Part shown: positions 7,178 to 21,956 of the stretch, in pieces | How positions within the stretch are numbered: the first letter of the stretch is position 1 | How the letters are laid out: every line of letters starts with the position of its first letter | Assembly: GCA_029821265.1 (NCBI GenBank) | Contig: JALGTR010000007.1 | Location: 1 to 38,407, forward strand | DNA length: 38,407 bases | From: Candidatus Zipacnadia bacterium | GTDB taxonomy: Bacteria > Armatimonadota > Zipacnadia > Zipacnadales > UBA5352 | Reading direction: 5' to 3' | Notes under the pieces: generated by a model | What the model saw: only the letters and a program-made list of their open reading frames with translations | What the model was told of the DNA's origin: nothing | Database searches by the model: none | Translations under genes and position numbers: made by a program

Positions 7178-7204
7178 GGAGACCGGTGCGGAGGAGTGAC
7201 GGGG

Positions 7205-8236
7205 ATGGCGCATGAGCAGACCGGGGGCGGGCAGGTCGTGCCTCATGATGCGGCGTGGTGGGAGAAGGACGAGGAGCGCGTGCACTGTCTGTTGTGCCCA
7301 CAGGACTGTCACATCGCGCCAGGACGGGCCGGGATCTGTCGCGTGCGCGAGAACGTTGATGGTGAGCTGAAGACGATCAACTACGCGCAGGTGACCTCGG
7401 CGGGCATGGATCCGATCGAGAAGAAGCCGCTGTACCACTTCTATCCTGGCTCTCAGATCCTGTCGCTGGGCACGTTCGGGTGCAATCTTAGCTGCGCGTT
7501 CTGCCAGAACTACACGATCTCGCAGGGGCAGCCGCCAGTGCAGACGTTGACGCCCGGGGAGGCGGTAAACGCGGCGCTTCGTCAGCGTGACCGCGGGAAC
7601 ATCGGGATCGCGTACACATACAGCGAGCCGATCGTCTGGTATGAGTACGTGCGCGACACGGCCCGGCTGGCTCAGCAGGAGGGCCTCAAGAACGTGCTCG
7701 TGACCAACGGGCTGATCCGCGAGGACCCGCTGGAGGAGCTGCTGCCGCTGATAGACGCGATGAACGTTGACATCAAGGCTATGGACGACGGTTTCTACCG
7801 TAAACTGTGCGGCATCTCCTCTGGCGAGGCCGCGCGGCGGACGGTGGAGATCGCGTTCGGTCGATGCTCCGTGGAGATCACGAACCTGCTTGTAACCGAT
7901 GACAACGACAGCGAGGAAGCGGTGCGCTCGCTGGTGGACTGGGCCGCAAGCGTGTCGCCGGATCTTCCGCTACACCTCTCGGCCTACCGGCCGGCGTATA
8001 AGCATAAGGCTCCGCCGACGCCGATCGCTCGGATACAGAGGGCGGCGGAGATCGCGCGCGAGAAACTGAACTTCGTCTACGTGGGCAACGTGATGGTCGA
8101 GGGAGGCGGCGACACGGTATGTCCCGACTGCCGTGATATCGTCGTTCGGCGGGCCGGATACTTCACCACGAGCAGACTGACCGACGAGGGAACCTGTCCG
8201 CAATGCGGGAGAAGCATTATTAATGTCGCCATCTGA
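7205..8236 (+). CDS. amrS: AmmeMemoRadiSam-system-type radical SAM enzyme
   Basis: CLLCPQDCHIAPGRAGICRVREN, GCNLSCAFCQNY (CxxxCxxC), C-terminal CPDC...CPQCG zinc-ribbon-like pairs. Alternative GTG start at 7196. Confidence 0.85.
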   Translation: MAHEQTGGGQVVPHDAAWWEKDEERVHCLLCPQDCHIAPGRAGICRVRENVDGELKTINYAQVTSAGMDPIEKKPLYHFYPGSQILSLGTFGCNLSCAFCQNYTISQGQPPVQTLTPGEAVNAALRQRDRGNIGIAYTYSEPIVWYEYVRDTARLAQQEGLKNVLVTNGLIREDPLEELLPLIDAMNVDIKAMDDGFYRKLCGISSGEAARRTVEIAFGRCSVEITNLLVTDDNDSEEAVRSLVDWAASVSPDLPLHLSAYRPAYKHKAPPTPIARIQRAAEIAREKLNFVYVGNVMVEGGGDTVCPDCRDIVVRRAGYFTTSRLTDEGTCPQCGRSIINVAI

Positions 8237-13260: not shown

Positions 13261-14046
13261 TTGCGTATGTCTGATCGATCGATCGTCGGGATGATCCCGG
13301 CGCGCTACGAGTCCACGAGGCTGCCCGGGAAGGTCCTGCTGGACCTCGCCGGTAAGCCCATGATCCAGCGGGTCTACGAGCGCTGTCGGGAGGCGAAGCT
13401 TCTCGACGACGTCGTCGTCGCAACTGACGATGAACGGGTCCTCGAGGCGGTCAGGGCGTTTGGGGGCAATGTCGAGATGACCCGCCGCGAGCATTCGTCG
13501 GGGACCGACCGGTTGGCCGAGCTTGCCGGGCGCCGGGACTGCGACGTGATCGTCAACATCCAGGGCGATGAGCCGATGATCGAGCCCGAGGCGATCGATG
13601 CGGCGGTCGAGCCATTCCTCGAGGACGATGACCTGCAGATGGCCACGATTGCGACGCCGATCAGGGATCTCGAGGAGCATCTCGATCCGGCGGCGGTGAA
13701 GGTCGTTGTGGACGCAGATGGCTGGGCGCTCTACTTCTCGCGCGCGCCGATCCCCTTCTTCCGCCTCGATCCCGGCGCCGAAGAGCCCGAGAGCCCGAGG
13801 GAGCACCCGAGGTCAAAGTTGCGGCCACTCAAGCATATCGGGCTCTACGTCTATCGCCGACCGATGCTTCTGTGGTATGCCGCGCAGCCGCAATCGAGGC
13901 TGGAGCTGACCGAGGGCCTCGAACAGCTTCGCGTGCTGGAGGCGGGCCGCCGCATTCGCGTGGTGCAGGTGCAGTACTCGCCGATTGGCGTTGACACGCC
14001 TGAGGACCTCGAGCGCGTGCGCGCAATGCTTGCGGAGGTCGAGTGA
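13261..14046 (+). CDS. kdsB: 3-deoxy-manno-octulosonate cytidylyltransferase
   Basis: GMIPARYESTRLPGKVLLDLAGKPMIQRVYE, VVATDDERV, EHSSGTDRLAEL, VNIQGDEPMI, IGLYVYR. Confidence 0.95.
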   Translation: MRMSDRSIVGMIPARYESTRLPGKVLLDLAGKPMIQRVYERCREAKLLDDVVVATDDERVLEAVRAFGGNVEMTRREHSSGTDRLAELAGRRDCDVIVNIQGDEPMIEPEAIDAAVEPFLEDDDLQMATIATPIRDLEEHLDPAAVKVVVDADGWALYFSRAPIPFFRLDPGAEEPESPREHPRSKLRPLKHIGLYVYRRPMLLWYAAQPQSRLELTEGLEQLRVLEAGRRIRVVQVQYSPIGVDTPEDLERVRAMLAEVE

Positions 14047-14048
14047 GG

Positions 14049-14882
14049 ATGGCCGACGTCAAAGAGGTCGTGATCCGTGAGCCCGACTGCGTGATAGGAG
14101 GGCGTGATCTCGCGATCATCGCCGGCCCGTGCCTCGTCGAGGATGAGAAGACCACCGTCGCGATCGCGGAGGAACTCGCCGCGATCTGCGACCGACTGAA
14201 GGTGCCGTTCGTCTTCAAAGCCTCCTACGACAAGGCAAACCGCACCTCGGTGGATTCCGAGCGCGGTCTGGGCTGGCAGCAGGGGCTGGAGATCCTCGCG
14301 CGGGTGGGGGAGACGGTGGATGTGCCCGTGCTCTCCGATGTCCACGACGTGCTTCAGGTGCCGCTGGCGATGCAGGCCCTGGACGCGCTACAGGTGCCCG
14401 CATTCCTGTCTCGGCAGACGGATCTGCTGGTTGCCTGCGGGGAGACGGAGCTTCCCGTCAACATCAAGAAGGGGCAGTTCCTGGCCCCGGAGGACATGGA
14501 GCACTCGATCAAGAAGGTCACCTCCACCGGGAACCACCGCGTGATGGTGACCGAGCGGGGGACAACGTTCGGATACCACAACCTCGTGGTGGACATGCGT
14601 GGGCTGCCCATAATGCGCAGGCTGGGCTACCCGGTGGTCTTCGACGCAACGCATTCGGTGCAGCTCCCCGGCGGCGGCTGCGGCGTGTCTGCCGGTCAGC
14701 GCGAGTACGCGCCCGTGCTGGCGCGTGCCGCTGTGGCGGTGGGGATCGACGCGGTCTTCATGGAGGTCCACCCGGATCCGGACAACGCCCCCTGCGACGG
14801 ACCGAATATGATCCCTCTGGCGGAGGTTGAGGATGTCATCAGGCGTCTTCTCTCTGTCCGCCGGGCGGTCGGGAATGTCTGA
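14049..14882 (+). CDS. kdsA: 3-deoxy-8-phosphooctulonate synthase
   Basis: IAGPCLVEDE, FKASYDKANRTS, NIKKGQFLAPEDM, VVFDATHSVQLPGG, MEVHPDPDNAPCDGPNM. Confidence 0.95.
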   Translation: MADVKEVVIREPDCVIGGRDLAIIAGPCLVEDEKTTVAIAEELAAICDRLKVPFVFKASYDKANRTSVDSERGLGWQQGLEILARVGETVDVPVLSDVHDVLQVPLAMQALDALQVPAFLSRQTDLLVACGETELPVNIKKGQFLAPEDMEHSIKKVTSTGNHRVMVTERGTTFGYHNLVVDMRGLPIMRRLGYPVVFDATHSVQLPGGGCGVSAGQREYAPVLARAAVAVGIDAVFMEVHPDPDNAPCDGPNMIPLAEVEDVIRRLLSVRRAVGNV

Positions 14883-15882
14883 GGCGATCACGAGTATGAC
14901 TGACGCTGAAGCGATTCTGCAGCAGGCTCGCAGGACGCTTGATATCGAAAGCCGCGCAATTGAGTGTGTGCGCGATCGGCTTGACGGGGCGTTCGTCGAG
15001 GCCGTGCGCATGCTGCTCGAGATGCGGGGGCGTGCGATCGTGTGTGGCATCGGCAAGTCCGGCGCAATGGGCCGTAAGCTCGCGGCCACGTTGGCCAGCA
15101 CCGGCACGCCGGCGTACTTCATGCACGCCGCCGAAGCCGTCCACGGCGATCTCGGGATGCTCAGCTCCGAAGACATCGCGGTGCTGATTACGAACTCCGG
15201 GGAGACCGATGAGATCGTGCGGATTCTGCCGCTGATCAAGCGACGCGGCGCCGGCACCATCGCCATCTGCGGACGCCGCGAATCGACGGTGGGCCGTGCG
15301 GTGGACGTGTTGCTCGACGCCTCGGTCGAGCGTGAGGCCTGTCCGCTGAACCTCGCACCGACATCCAGCGCAGTGGCCGAGCTGGCGCTCGGCGACGCGC
15401 TCGCCATGGCGCTGATGGCCGCGCGCGGCTTCTCCGCCGAGGATTTCGGGCAGACGCACCCCGGCGGCGCGCTCGGGCGACGCGTGCTGCTGACGGTCGA
15501 TGATGTCATGCACGGCGACGGTGACAACCCGACGGTCCCGCCGGACGCGACCGTCGAGGAGGCACTGCTGGCGATGACCAACGCGGCCGTGCGCGGCGCA
15601 GTAACCATCGTCGATGACGACGGGAAGCTGCTCGGGCTCTTCACGGACGGCGACTTTCGGCGTGTGGTCCAGAGGGAGCGTAACCGCGACGCCCTGATGG
15701 AGCGCCCGATCCGCGAGGTGATGACCACTGAGCCCACCGTGGTTCGCTCGGGCACGCTGGCGATCGATGCCCTGAACCTGATGGACGAGCGGGAGTTCGA
15801 CAACGTTCCGGTGATCGACGCCGAGGGGCGCGCGGTGGGGATGCTCGACATCCAGGACCTGATGAAGGCCGGACTGGTCTGA
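14875..15882 (+). CDS. kdsD: Arabinose-5-phosphate isomerase (SIS + CBS domains)
   Basis: GIGKSGAMGRKLAATLASTGTPAYFMHAAEAVHGDLGM, ALGDALAMALMAARGFSAEDFGQTHPGGALGRR, CBS pair. Confidence 0.9.
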   Translation: MSEAITSMTDAEAILQQARRTLDIESRAIECVRDRLDGAFVEAVRMLLEMRGRAIVCGIGKSGAMGRKLAATLASTGTPAYFMHAAEAVHGDLGMLSSEDIAVLITNSGETDEIVRILPLIKRRGAGTIAICGRRESTVGRAVDVLLDASVEREACPLNLAPTSSAVAELALGDALAMALMAARGFSAEDFGQTHPGGALGRRVLLTVDDVMHGDGDNPTVPPDATVEEALLAMTNAAVRGAVTIVDDDGKLLGLFTDGDFRRVVQRERNRDALMERPIREVMTTEPTVVRSGTLAIDALNLMDEREFDNVPVIDAEGRAVGMLDIQDLMKAGLV

Positions 15883-15890
15883 GCGAGAGC

Positions 15891-16616
15891 ATGGAACTGA
15901 CGATCGTCCACACGGCGGACCTTCACAGTCGCCTTGACGCCGAGCGCGCCGAGGCGTTGAAGTTCCTGCGGGAGAAGGTCGGCGCGCTGCTGCTCGACAG
16001 CGGTGACGCCGTGGCCGCGGGCAACATCTACGTTCGCCCGACTGAGCCGGTGCTGGAGCGTATGAACTCGGCGGGCTACCACGCGATGGCCGTGGGGAAT
16101 CGCGAGTACTTCTTCCGCCGCAGCGGGATGCTGCGCAAGACGCGGGCGGCGGATTTCACGGTCCTGTGCGCAAACCTCGTGCACGTCGGCGGCGATATGG
16201 GACACATCCTCCCGTGGACGACGCTCGAGACTACCGCCGGCACGATCGGGCTGTTCGGCCTCGCGCCGACGATGATCAGGCCGGGCAGCTTCTGGGAGCA
16301 CTTCTCGGACATGCGCTTTATCGACTGGCGGGAGGCGGCCGAGGAGGCCTGCGAGGCGCTCCGCGACGAGGTGGACTGGCTCATAGCGCTCAGCCATCGG
16401 GGGCTCGATGACGATCTCGCGCTCGCCGCCGAACATCCGGAGCTGGACATCGTGCTCGGCGGGCACAGCCACGCCAGCGGCGACCACCTCGTGGGGCCCA
16501 GGCCGACGCTGGTCTCACACGCCGGGCACCACGCACGGACAGCGGCGCTGATACGAGCCGAGCGCGGGCAGGCGGGAGGCAACCGCTTCAACTCGCAGGT
16601 CATGGAGATGGCGTGA
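15891..16616 (+). CDS. Calcineurin-like metallophosphatase (5'-nucleotidase-like)
   Basis: ELTIVHTADLHSRL, LLDSGDAV, AMAVGNREY, IALSHRG, DIVLGGHSHA. Confidence 0.85.
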   Translation: MELTIVHTADLHSRLDAERAEALKFLREKVGALLLDSGDAVAAGNIYVRPTEPVLERMNSAGYHAMAVGNREYFFRRSGMLRKTRAADFTVLCANLVHVGGDMGHILPWTTLETTAGTIGLFGLAPTMIRPGSFWEHFSDMRFIDWREAAEEACEALRDEVDWLIALSHRGLDDDLALAAEHPELDIVLGGHSHASGDHLVGPRPTLVSHAGHHARTAALIRAERGQAGGNRFNSQVMEMA

Positions 16617-17401
16617 TGAGCTGGCGGCTCTACGCAGATGTCGGCAATACGGCGCTGAAGTGGGCGGCCCACGACGGAGAGGGCTGGCTCGCGGACGGCC
16701 GGGTTGCGCTGACGCAGCTTGGCACGCACACACTCGCCGAGGAGCTGCTCGCGAGTGGTCTGCGGCCCGAGGCCTGCGACGGCGCCGCCCTGGTCATCAG
16801 CAGACCCTCGGCGGCGGAGGACGCACTTGCGGCAGTTGCCGGCGCGACGGGCGTGAAGGCGGCTGTGCTCGGCGAAGAGTTGCAGTGTGAGATCGCAACA
16901 GAGTACTACGATCCGTCGGAGATAGGACGTGACCGACTGGCGGCCTGCGAGGGTGCGCTGGCCCTGCACGGCGCTCCGGCGATCGTGTTGACGCTCGGCA
17001 CCTGCCTCACGGCCCAGGCGCTGGATGCGACGGGAACGCTGGTTGGCGGCGTGATCGCCGCGGGCCTTCAGGCGCAGGTGGCCGGGATCACCCGGCTGGT
17101 CCCGCATCTCGCTGAGCCGGTGGACAAAGCTCTGGCGAACCTGCAGGCCGGCGGGGAGCTGCCTGAGGCCGGTCGCTCGACCGTGGAGAACCTGGTGCTC
17201 GGGCTGGTCAGCGCGCTACGCGGAGGCGTCGCGGAGATGACCGGGCGCATGGCCGAGGTGCTCGGGGGCGAGGCGCCCACGATCGCCACTGGCGGCGATC
17301 TGTCGTTGGCACAGAGCATGGGAGTCGCGTTCGATTACGTCGAACCACTTCTCGTACTCGAAGGGCTGAGAGCGGTTGACGAGCGGTTGCGCGGGCGCTA
17401 A
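16613..17401 (+). CDS. coaX: Type III pantothenate kinase-like protein
   Basis: YADVGNTALKWA, EIGRDRLAACEGA, LVGGVIAAGLQAQ; motif order fits CoaX. Confidence 0.75.
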   Translation: MMSWRLYADVGNTALKWAAHDGEGWLADGRVALTQLGTHTLAEELLASGLRPEACDGAALVISRPSAAEDALAAVAGATGVKAAVLGEELQCEIATEYYDPSEIGRDRLAACEGALALHGAPAIVLTLGTCLTAQALDATGTLVGGVIAAGLQAQVAGITRLVPHLAEPVDKALANLQAGGELPEAGRSTVENLVLGLVSALRGGVAEMTGRMAEVLGGEAPTIATGGDLSLAQSMGVAFDYVEPLLVLEGLRAVDERLRGR

Positions 17402-18434
17402 GAATCTGGCCGAGCCGCTGCGCATCGGCGATGTGGTGGTTGACCCGCCGCTGGTGCTCGGGCCGATGGCCGGCACGACCAACCGCGTCTACCGCCTGCT
17501 GTGCCGGCGCGGCGGGGCCGGTCTGGTCAGCGCCGAGATGGTGTCAATCAATGCGCTCGCGCAGGGCAATGAGCGGAGCCTCCGGATGCTCGAGGTGTGG
17601 GAGCAGGAGCGTCCGGTGTCGATGCAGCTCTTTGGCTCCGATCCGAAGATGATGCGCGAGACCGTCGGCCAGGCGGTCGAGGCGGGCGCTGACATCGTTG
17701 ACATCAACATGGGTTGCTCGGTGCCGAAGATTCGGCGCAACGGCGCCGGCGTCGCGCTGATGTCCGAGCCTGATCGAGCCGCGGCGCTGACGGCGGCAGC
17801 AGTCGAGAGTTCGAGCGTCCCTGTGACGGTGAAGATCCGCTCAGGCATGACGGTCGATGACCGGAGCTACGTAGAGCTCGCCCGCCGGCTGCAGGACGCC
17901 GGCGCTGCCGCGATTACTGTGCACTGGCGAGCCGCGTCGCAGAAGTTCAAGGGCGAGGCGAACTGGGAGCCGATTGCGCGGGTCGTTGAGGCGCTGGATG
18001 TGCCGGTGATCGGAAACGGGGATGTTGTCGATCCGCAGGACGCGCCGCGGATGGTGCGGGAGACCGGATGCGATGCGGTCATGATCGCGCGTGGGGCGTG
18101 GGGCAGACCGTGGTTCTTCGGCCAGGCGGCCGCAGCGTTGCGTGGCGAGCCCGTGCCGCCGGATCCGGACATTGCCGGTCGTCTCGGTGTGGCGCTGCTG
18201 CACGCGCAGATGCTCGTCACCGAGATCGGCGAGCGGATGGCGATGCATCAGATGCGGGCGCAGCTCCATCAGTACGTACGCGGGCTGCCGTGCGCGCGGA
18301 TCTTCCGACAGGACGCGAATCGCATCACGACGCTTGCGCAGCTTCGCGAGCTGATCGAGCGCCATGTGGCCACGATCCGGACCGCTCGCGACGACGAACC
18401 GATCGACAGGCAGGTCTACGCGGGGATGGCCTGA
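17376..18434 (+). CDS. dus: tRNA-dihydrouridine synthase (DusB-like)
   Basis: LGPMAGTTNRVYRLLCRRGGAGLVSAEMVS, DINMGCSVPKIRRNGAGVALM, ITVHWRAASQKFKG, VIGNGDV, MIARGAWGRPW. Confidence 0.9.
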   Translation: MTSGCAGAKNLAEPLRIGDVVVDPPLVLGPMAGTTNRVYRLLCRRGGAGLVSAEMVSINALAQGNERSLRMLEVWEQERPVSMQLFGSDPKMMRETVGQAVEAGADIVDINMGCSVPKIRRNGAGVALMSEPDRAAALTAAAVESSSVPVTVKIRSGMTVDDRSYVELARRLQDAGAAAITVHWRAASQKFKGEANWEPIARVVEALDVPVIGNGDVVDPQDAPRMVRETGCDAVMIARGAWGRPWFFGQAAAALRGEPVPPDPDIAGRLGVALLHAQMLVTEIGERMAMHQMRAQLHQYVRGLPCARIFRQDANRITTLAQLRELIERHVATIRTARDDEPIDRQVYAGMA

Positions 18435-18444
18435 TGGAGGCGCC

Positions 18445-19371
18445 ATGAAACACGTACTGAGCATAAGCCTGGGCTCATCCTCGCGGGATAAGACCGCTGA
18501 GGCGGAGCTGCTCGGCGAGCGGTTCATCATCGAGCGTCGCGGCACGGACGGCTCGCTCGCGACCTTCGAGCGGCTGATGACCGAGAACGATGGCAGGGTC
18601 GACTGCCTGTGCGTGGGCGGAGCGAACCTCGGGCTGCACTGTGCGGGTAAGTTCTATCGCTTCCGAGAGATCGCGCGAGCCACGCGCAACGTCAGGCAGA
18701 CACCACTGGTGGATGGGGCGGGCGTGAAAAACTCGCTCGAGCGGCGAACCGTGCACTGGCTGCAGGAGCGAAGTGTCGTGGACTTCAGGACGAGCACCGT
18801 CCTGGTCGCGTGCGGAATGGACCGCTTCGGGATGGCTGAGACGCTCGACGAGCTGGGCGCCAACTGCATCTTCGGCGACCTGATGTTCAACGTCGCTGTC
18901 CCGGTAGTGATCCCGTCCCTCCCGGCGCTGCAGGGCATCGGAGGGATGCTGCTGCCGCTCGTGGTGCAGCTTCCCTTCGAGTGGCTCTATCCCACCGGCG
19001 AGAGGCAGGACGAGATCATTCCGAGGTTCCATCATGCGTGGGAATGGGCGGACATCATCGTCGGGGACTTTCTGATCATCCGACGCTACATGCCCGACGA
19101 CCTGAGCGGGAAGGTCATCGTCACGAACACCACGACCGAGCAGGATGTTGCCGAGCTGCGTCGCCGCGGGGTGCGACTGCTGGTCACGAGCACGCCGGTC
19201 CTGGACGGGCGGGCGTTCGCGACCAACGTGCTCGAGGGCATCTTCGTGTGCCTGCTGGGCCGTCCGGCGGCCGAGCTGGGGCCGGAGGACTACCTCGGCC
19301 TCGCCGACAGGCTGGGCTGGGAGCCGACTGTCAGGGATCTGACGGAGCCCGCTGAGGAGGGGACTCTTTGA
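18445..19371 (+). CDS. Uncharacterised protein, resembles proteins I recall being auto-annotated 'quinate 5-dehydrogenase'; first gene of an AAR-like pair
   Basis: MKHVLSISLGSSSRDKTAEAELLGERFIIERRGTDG..., FGDLMFNVAVPVVIPSLPALQ; stop overlaps the next start (TTGA). Confidence 0.7.
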   Translation: MKHVLSISLGSSSRDKTAEAELLGERFIIERRGTDGSLATFERLMTENDGRVDCLCVGGANLGLHCAGKFYRFREIARATRNVRQTPLVDGAGVKNSLERRTVHWLQERSVVDFRTSTVLVACGMDRFGMAETLDELGANCIFGDLMFNVAVPVVIPSLPALQGIGGMLLPLVVQLPFEWLYPTGERQDEIIPRFHHAWEWADIIVGDFLIIRRYMPDDLSGKVIVTNTTTEQDVAELRRRGVRLLVTSTPVLDGRAFATNVLEGIFVCLLGRPAAELGPEDYLGLADRLGWEPTVRDLTEPAEEGTL

Positions 19372-20450
19372 CACGTTTCGCTTTCATCATACATCCGTTG
19401 AGCACCGCGGACGTGGCGCGGAAGTATCCGTTCGCCCGCTACCTGCCTGACTGCCTGGTCGAGGCCGCGATGGCCCGCACGCCCTCGAAGATCGTCAGCG
19501 AGATCACCGGCGTTCGCTCGCCCACCGGGGCCGAGACTGCCGGCTGGTTCGTTGGCTGCCCGCTGTCATCGCGCCAGCTCGCCGAGTGGCCGCCTGAGCG
19601 CACCATCCCGAGGGTCATCGAGGCGGCGCGCGTCGCCGAGGCGCTTGGCGCGGAGATCGTCGGTCTGGGCGCCTTCACCGCGATCGTAGGGGACGGCGGG
19701 CGTGAGGTCGCGGAGGCGGTCGAGATCGGCGTCACGACCGGTAACAGCTACACTGTCGCGACGGCGGTGCAGGGCACGCTGGAAGCTGCACGGCTGATGG
19801 AGATCGACGTCAGTTCGGCGACCGCCGCAGTCCTCGGCGCGACCGGATCCATCGGGCGCGTCTGCGCCCACCTCCTTGCCGACTCCGTCGCGCGCATCAT
19901 CGTCATCGGGCGCCGCGAGGAGGCGCTGCAGACTCTCCTGCGGGAGCTTTCGGGGTCGCGGGCTGAGGTCATCGCCAGCACCGACACGGCGGCGTCGCTT
20001 CCCGAGGCGGAGCTGGTGGTGACGGTCACCAGCGCGCTCGACACCGTCGTTGAGCCCGAGATGCTCCGCTCCGGCTCCGTCGTCTGTGACGTGGCCCGTC
20101 CGCGCGACGTCTCCGGTCGCGTCGCTCGCGAGCGCGACGACGTGCTGGTGATCGAGGGCGGGGCGGTCGCGATCCCTGGTGACGTCAACTTTAACTTCAA
20201 CTTCGGCTTTCCGCCGGGCACAGCCTACGCCTGCATGGCCGAGACCATGATCCTCGCGCTCGAGGGTATGACCGAGGACTACTCCATCGGCAAGCGGCTT
20301 GAACTCGAGCGCGTGCGTGAGAGCTCCGGGCTCGCCGTCAGACACGGGTTTGGCCTCGCGGGCTTCCGCAGCTTCGAGCGGACGCTCTCGGATGAGGACA
20401 TCAATAGAATCAGACAACGCGCGTCGGAGACGGCGAATGCCTCCGCGTGA
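19368..20450 (+). CDS. Acyl-ACP-reductase-like / COG5322-type NAD(P)-dependent dehydrogenase
   Basis: GLGAFTAIVGDGG, VTTGNSYTVATAVQG, AVLGATGSIGRVCAHLLAD, ACMAETMILALEGMTEDYSIGKRLELERVRESSGLAVRHGFGLAGF resemble cyanobacterial long-chain acyl-ACP reductase. Confidence 0.75.
   Translation: MTRFAFIIHPLSTADVARKYPFARYLPDCLVEAAMARTPSKIVSEITGVRSPTGAETAGWFVGCPLSSRQLAEWPPERTIPRVIEAARVAEALGAEIVGLGAFTAIVGDGGREVAEAVEIGVTTGNSYTVATAVQGTLEAARLMEIDVSSATAAVLGATGSIGRVCAHLLADSVARIIVIGRREEALQTLLRELSGSRAEVIASTDTAASLPEAELVVTVTSALDTVVEPEMLRSGSVVCDVARPRDVSGRVARERDDVLVIEGGAVAIPGDVNFNFNFGFPPGTAYACMAETMILALEGMTEDYSIGKRLELERVRESSGLAVRHGFGLAGFRSFERTLSDEDINRIRQRASETANASA

Positions 20451-20486: not shown

Positions 20487-21956
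<1,470 letters not shown>

Follow-up and report, generated by a model that had tools for sequence, protein, structure and literature searches.

Enzymes that reduce an acyl thioester to an aldehyde are the closest described relatives of the locus studied here. Cyanobacterial acyl-ACP reductase, AAR (TIGR04058; PDB 6JZQ and 6JZY), has an aldehyde-deformylating oxygenase (ADO) as its partner. In PigE, from the prodigiosin pathway, a thioester reductase domain is joined to an aminotransferase domain, and the protein has been proposed to reduce the thioester and then to act on the aldehyde by transamination; evidence exists for each reaction (PMC8341465). TamH, from the tambjamine pathway, which also carries an aminotransferase domain, converts C12 acyl-ACP to the aldehyde and then to the amine in vitro (PMC9594044). 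A similar fold occurs in the TAD domain of carmabin (PDB 9E4U, 9E50, 9E56), which belongs to a natural-product pathway.

The N-glyceroyl alkylamine lipids are a second described system, one that needs a fatty amine. In Chthonomonas calidirosea (Armatimonadota) all phospholipids are phosphatidylglyceroylalkylamines (PMC3367263); N-glyceroyl alkylamine lipids are also found in Thermus and Deinococcus (PMC3398001), and the same class occurs in Moorella thermoacetica (PMC13274423, which cites Bale et al. 2025). No genes for alkylamine-lipid synthesis were reported in the literature that we searched.

The window that we analysed is a stretch of 38,407 nucleotides from an Armatimonadota genome (Candidatus Zipacnadia bacterium, GCA_029821265.1, contig JALGTR010000007.1). 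It contains a two-gene unit, ORF1 and ORF2, on the same strand as its conserved neighbours:

16613-17401, plus strand: coaX, type III pantothenate kinase (PF03309), conserved neighbour.
17376-18434, plus strand: dusB-like tRNA-dihydrouridine synthase (PF01207), conserved neighbour.
18436-18440, plus strand: GGAGG, ribosome-binding-like sequence before ORF1, from the sequence.
18445-19371, plus strand: ORF1, 308 aa, ATG at 18445, stop at 19369-19371; partner-gene protein, function unassigned.
18709-18741, plus strand: ORF1 motif VDGAGVKNSLE, residues 89-99, with D90, G91, K95 and E99 invariant in the homologue alignment.
18820-18825, plus strand: ORF1 Asp126-Arg127, both invariant; with an AAR layout they would occupy the position of the Gly-rich loop (placement from a profile alignment, statistically insecure).
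19063-19068, plus strand: ORF1 Gly207-Asp208, invariant in the homologue alignment.
19222-19227, plus strand: ORF1 Thr260-Asn261 (Asn invariant), from the alignment; close to the position of the catalytic Cys of AAR, should the two proteins share one layout.
19354-19360, plus strand: GAGGAGG, ribosome-binding-like sequence before ORF2, from the sequence.
19368-19371, plus strand: TTGA, 4-base overlap of the ORF2 start with the ORF1 stop, from the sequence.
19368-20450, plus strand: ORF2, 360 aa, TTG at 19368, stop at 20448-20450; AAR-like acyl-thioester reductase.
19734-19754, plus strand: ORF2 TTGNSYT motif, residues 123-129, from the homologue alignment.
19836-19856, plus strand: ORF2 nucleotide-binding loop GATGSIG, residues 157-163, from the homologue alignment.
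20232-20234, plus strand: ORF2 Cys289 in YACMAETM, predicted acyl-accepting residue, from the alignment (Cys in 70/77 homologues).
20487-21956, plus strand: lysS, lysyl-tRNA synthetase (PF00152), conserved neighbour.

The sequence-only reading had placed the two-gene unit, the GATGSIG loop and Cys289 exactly here and had named the TTGA overlap and the TTGNSYT motif, and nothing needed correction. ORF1 and ORF2 are genuine genes, beyond chance: in two phyla both have homologues over their full length, with identities of 42-56%. The TTG start of ORF2 is credible because its homologues begin at the same residue, through ATG, GTG or TTG.

ORF2 had been taken for an AAR-like enzyme with a catalytic cysteine, and both sequence and fold bear this out. 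Among PDB sequences its best solved relatives are the N-terminal domain of PigE (4ppm, 1.6e-33) and the AAR of S. elongatus (6jzq, 8.7e-28). Its AlphaFold2 model, built from 24 sequences (mean pLDDT 90.6), has AAR as top Foldseek match (E 4.1e-24, TM 0.78/0.82, 28% identity over the structural alignment), followed by the carmabin TAD domain (E 8e-18), for which no sequence match was found. GATGSIG and Cys289 align with the loop and with the catalytic Cys294 of AAR, and Cys289 and the GxxGxxG pattern are retained in nearly all ORF2-like sequences. The Shikimate_DH NAD(P)-binding domain PF01488 also matches ORF2 (51 bits); this model is not specific for quinate or shikimate dehydrogenases. We rejected assignment to the SDRs or to plain shikimate dehydrogenases because the full-length AAR and PigE matches, with the Cys site, are far stronger.

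ORF2 shares with cyanobacterial AAR the fold, the Gly-rich loop and the cysteine in the same motif, yet it does not belong to the AAR equivalog: it scores 113.4 bits against TIGR04058, whose cut-off is 449.7. It scores 213.6 bits against the NCBIfam PigE model (NF053554, cut-off 850), over the reductase part only. Its partner gene also differs from that of AAR, and a long branch separates ORF2 from AAR. The sequence-only reading had seen no ADO in the window, and this extends to the whole genome (92.6% complete), in which PF11266 has no match, while the S. elongatus control was positive. Unlike PigE and TamH, ORF2 stands alone: no PF00202 aminotransferase domain was detected in its 360 residues by the Pfam scan. 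In a tree whose bootstrap values are not fully settled, the ORF2 family forms its own clade, with AAR and the proteins of PigE domain order on long branches outside it, whereas Bacillota fusions of TamH order fall inside the family. Taken by family and modelled fold, the assignment of ORF2 as a thioester-to-aldehyde reductase is well supported, and its family strongly supports the predicted acyl transfer to Cys289 and hydride reduction to the aldehyde.

The pair is conserved outside cyanobacteria, as had been proposed. A scan of GTDB contigs gave 32 loci, which fall in Bacillota, in Armatimonadota and in two bins that bear the name Hebobacteria; in 24 of them ORF2 follows ORF1 on the same strand, and one further locus has the reverse order. 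The recurring arrangement is coaX, dusB, a helix-turn-helix (HTH) protein in Bacillota, ORF1, ORF2, greA and lysS. This setting raises the explanation that ORF1 is an unrelated housekeeping gene, tied to ORF2 only by a stable coaX-dusB-greA-lysS cluster, in which adjacency alone could be inherited. We consider it improbable on the evidence of genomes where the genes are apart or missing. ORF1 is present in 241 of 251 Armatimonadota genomes (177 of the 179 of good quality) and ORF2 in 197 of 201, about 10 of these being weak matches that we discounted. Both gene places are listed for 93 Armatimonadota genomes, with the genes adjacent in 54 and unlinked in 39, and because of these 39 the link between them exceeds inherited adjacency. 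In Sulfobacillus, too, both are present and unlinked. Among 200 genomes of the Bacillota phylum that includes Tepidanaerobacter, ORF1 has strong matches in 153; 133 genomes carry both genes, 21 ORF1 only, three an ORF2-like gene only and 43 neither (Fisher p 3.7e-24; ORF2-like threshold E < 1e-19, tallied by hand, p values ignoring relatedness). Of the 45 Bacillota genomes without an ORF1 match, 42 also lack ORF2. Rare co-occurrence would have spoken against the sequence-only reading; instead, both genes are near-universal in Armatimonadota and co-occur strongly in the Bacillota phylum. The 21 of 154 ORF1-positive Bacillota without any ORF2-like gene indicate that ORF1 does not always depend on ORF2.

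Several other genes recur at these loci. The Bacillota HTH protein (about 175 aa) has an N-terminal helix-turn-helix and a C-terminal domain with no Pfam match above cut-off, and lies between dusB and ORF1, ORF2 or a fusion (for example L002, 4957-5616; L104, 7968-8498; L105, 5867-6397; L081, 4911-5444; and other Bacillota). It is likely a dedicated regulator and is absent from the window. In some Bacillota (L094, L095, L096, L097, L098, L099) ORF1, often with the HTH gene, was found with no ORF2 or aminotransferase fusion detected. Radical SAM genes that belong to one cluster lie at 7196-8236 in the window, 10 kb upstream of the pair, and at L063 (10166-11503), L015 (15897-16886) and L004 (4037-5434). 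One Armatimonadota genome has such a gene 400 bp from ORF2; in Tepidanaerobacter it lies downstream of the pair, with an AMMECR1-like gene close by. Positions 13261-15882 of the window hold consecutive genes for a cytidylyltransferase, a DAHP-synthase-type enzyme and a SIS-CBS protein, as would fit a pathway for KDO (LPS) and an envelope with two membranes.

The fate of the aldehyde is suggested by the proteins that take the place of ORF2. Directly 3' of ORF1 in L006 lies a class III aminotransferase-reductase fusion, inside which the contig ends; L081 has the order HTH gene, ORF1, fusion, and in L073 the HTH gene precedes the fusion. The genome of L011 has a fusion elsewhere (L049, 877 aa; PF00202 at E 2e-93 plus the reductase). 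In the same 200 Bacillota genomes, fusions occur in about 28 and an intact stand-alone ORF2 in 94, with both only in G376 (p 1.5e-7, again ignoring relatedness). In the tree the 20 fusions group in a single clade with full support, which arises from within the ORF2s, with the same reservation on bootstrap values. Because the fusions nest among ORF2s and nearly exclude intact ORF2, the two look like alternative ways to the same step. They have the architecture of TamH, and this replacement beside ORF1 is why we prefer a fatty amine to the aldehyde, alcohol or redox-lipid products that the sequence-only reading had offered; its aldehyde would then be an intermediate.

Further fusions were seen in other settings. 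A search of plasmids with ORF2 returned mostly PigE/TamH-like fusions. One of them, on a Leisingera thetidis plasmid (L113, 3594-7781), is a 1395-aa aminotransferase-reductase adjoining an MMPL transporter, and its reductase, though long-branched, groups within the clade of the Bacillota fusions. The Bacillota genome G382 has a fusion in PigE order, reductase first and aminotransferase second (L087, 7081-9615), as well as an intact ORF2.

The pair might instead make fatty aldehyde for another sink, such as an alcohol, an ether lipid, a wax or an aldehyde signal, while the fusions belong to a branch that makes something else. In favour of this, the product of AAR goes into alkanes or alcohols, the Armatimonadota have no aminotransferase at the locus, and some of the same Bacillota are known to have iso-diabolic and ether lipids (PMC13274423). 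We nevertheless judge this unlikely, given that the fusions occupy the ORF2 slot beside ORF1 (L006, L081) and exclude intact ORF2, that ADO is absent from the genome, and that PlsA/Ger, to which PMC13274423 ascribes ether formation, are not AAR-like.

In a number of loci the ORF2 that adjoins ORF1 has lost the cysteine, usually together with the Gly-rich loop (L017, L025, L085, L114, L115, L117, L119, L120, L122 and L123; Trp in L085, L114 and L115). In L017 and L025 the loop reads GADNAIG or GADNAVG and the cysteine is missing. Decayed copies lie at:

L017, 8932-9990: decayed ORF2.
L025, 8933-9994: decayed ORF2.
L085, 2540-3655: decayed ORF2.
L114, 1643-2758: decayed ORF2.
L119, 2588-3652: decayed ORF2.
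L122, 1805-2893: decayed ORF2.

The genomes of L085, L114, L115 and L117 have an intact-looking fusion elsewhere, and L129 holds a further decayed copy (E 6e-14). That a dead reductase is kept beside ORF1 suggests that the two proteins form a complex. Genes of about 300 aa in the same slot of L131, L135, L139, L140 and L144 resemble extreme decay of ORF2 at E values of 0.1-0.6, which are not significant, and we do not claim them as decayed ORF2. Similar genes of about 300 aa directly follow ORF1 in L100 (7904-8773) and L101 (8280-9149) and could be further cases of extreme decay, the E values over all of these slot genes being 0.03-0.6 and not significant; the Pfam scan of the L100 gene gave no match.

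ORF1 had been described as having no clear function, and it indeed matches nothing in Pfam, NCBIfam or the PDB sequences. A profile search of the PDB gave weak, chance-level matches only, for example GroEL, its model found only weak matches in a library of viral structures, and no ORF1 was found in plasmids or viral contigs. The AlphaFold2 model (28 sequences, pLDDT 91.7, pTM 0.88) has AAR as its best PDB match (E 1.7e-6, probability 1.00, TM 0.52, rmsd 7.8), with sugar-binding proteins, the carmabin TAD domain and glutamate dehydrogenases close behind. The model suggests that ORF1 has two domains, contains a Rossmann fold and is laid out like AAR, which does not by itself establish homology. 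We do not claim ORF1 and ORF2 as paralogues because, with three different alignments, hhalign comparison of their profiles yielded P = 0.31, P = 0.0025 (co-linear over 220 columns) and P = 0.064.

ORF1 might also have the AAR fold but no catalysis of its own, and serve ORF2 as a scaffold or regulator in the manner of a pseudoenzyme subunit. Such a role would fit this structural match, the lack of GxGxxG and of a conserved cysteine in the ORF1 homologue alignments, and the retention of decayed ORF2s beside ORF1, as in a complex. We regard this as possible, though doubtful: 29 residues are invariant in 90 ORF1 homologues, a larger number than ORF2 shows, genomes in which neither ORF2 nor a fusion was found still keep ORF1, and the profile similarity of the two proteins swings with the alignment. 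The invariant residues include D90, K95, E99, D126, R127, D145, D208 and N261, and so many fixed polar positions argue that ORF1 has its own active site. For this reason, and because it is kept in genomes that have replaced or lack ORF2, we favour ORF1 as a further enzyme of an alkylamine-lipid route.

On balance, we find it rather probable that ORF2 supplies the aldehyde for an alkylamine lipid and that ORF1 carries out a further conserved step. Cys289 of ORF2 would accept the acyl group of an acyl-ACP or acyl-CoA, and a nicotinamide cofactor held at GATGSIG would reduce the acyl-enzyme and release a fatty aldehyde. NADPH is the probable cofactor, to judge from a conserved Arg that follows the second strand; TamH is NADH-specific. 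Transamination would then turn the aldehyde into the amine, through the fused aminotransferase domain in part of the Bacillota and through a separate enzyme in Armatimonadota, where no aminotransferase is conserved next to ORF2. In N-glyceroyl alkylamine (phosphatidylglyceroylalkylamine) phospholipids the long-chain alkylamine would form the chain attached by an amide bond. ORF1, probably complexed with the reductase, would carry out a step that is required whichever way the aldehyde or amine arises.

The lipid needs a long-chain amine; the passage from acyl-ACP through aldehyde to amine is the simplest route, and it matches the enzymes seen. The lipids occur in phyla that carry the genes, and in G022, a genome of the family of the named Chthonomonas locus, ORF1 and ORF2 are adjacent with their motifs intact (L059). 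We infer the lipid destination from this phylum-level distribution and one probable genome, not from a trait-by-genome test. The AAR model also has matches in Thermus composti and Deinobacterium; these are weak evidence because M. jannaschii matches too, and they may partly be other reductases.

More tentatively, ORF1 could be a new enzyme family that catalyses a committed step of N-glyceroyl alkylamine phospholipid synthesis, for example the joining of the fatty amine to the glyceroyl head group, with ORF2 or its aminotransferase fusion as the missing source of fatty amine. It may correspond to the family labelled 'quinate 5-dehydrogenase' in databases. The sequence-only reading had suggested that ORF1 homologues may carry this label, and we could not substantiate it, as no Pfam or NCBIfam family matches ORF1 at E 1; PMC9425974 gives the label to a Deinococcus/Thermus family that may or may not be the one to which ORF1 belongs.

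Alkylamine phospholipids account for all of the phospholipid reported in Chthonomonas and are also present in Deinococcus and Thermus, and the literature that we searched reports no genes for making the amine or for joining it to the head group; the two-gene unit makes this question directly testable. The repeated loss of the catalytic cysteine beside the same partner is, in addition, a natural experiment on a protein complex. If the proposed route is true, it would give a function to a family that is without a Pfam entry and kept in almost every Armatimonadota genome, and the pair would be genomic markers for this lipid class. Should ORF1 prove to be a committed-step enzyme, these would serve as marker genes across Armatimonadota, Deinococcota and Bacillota.
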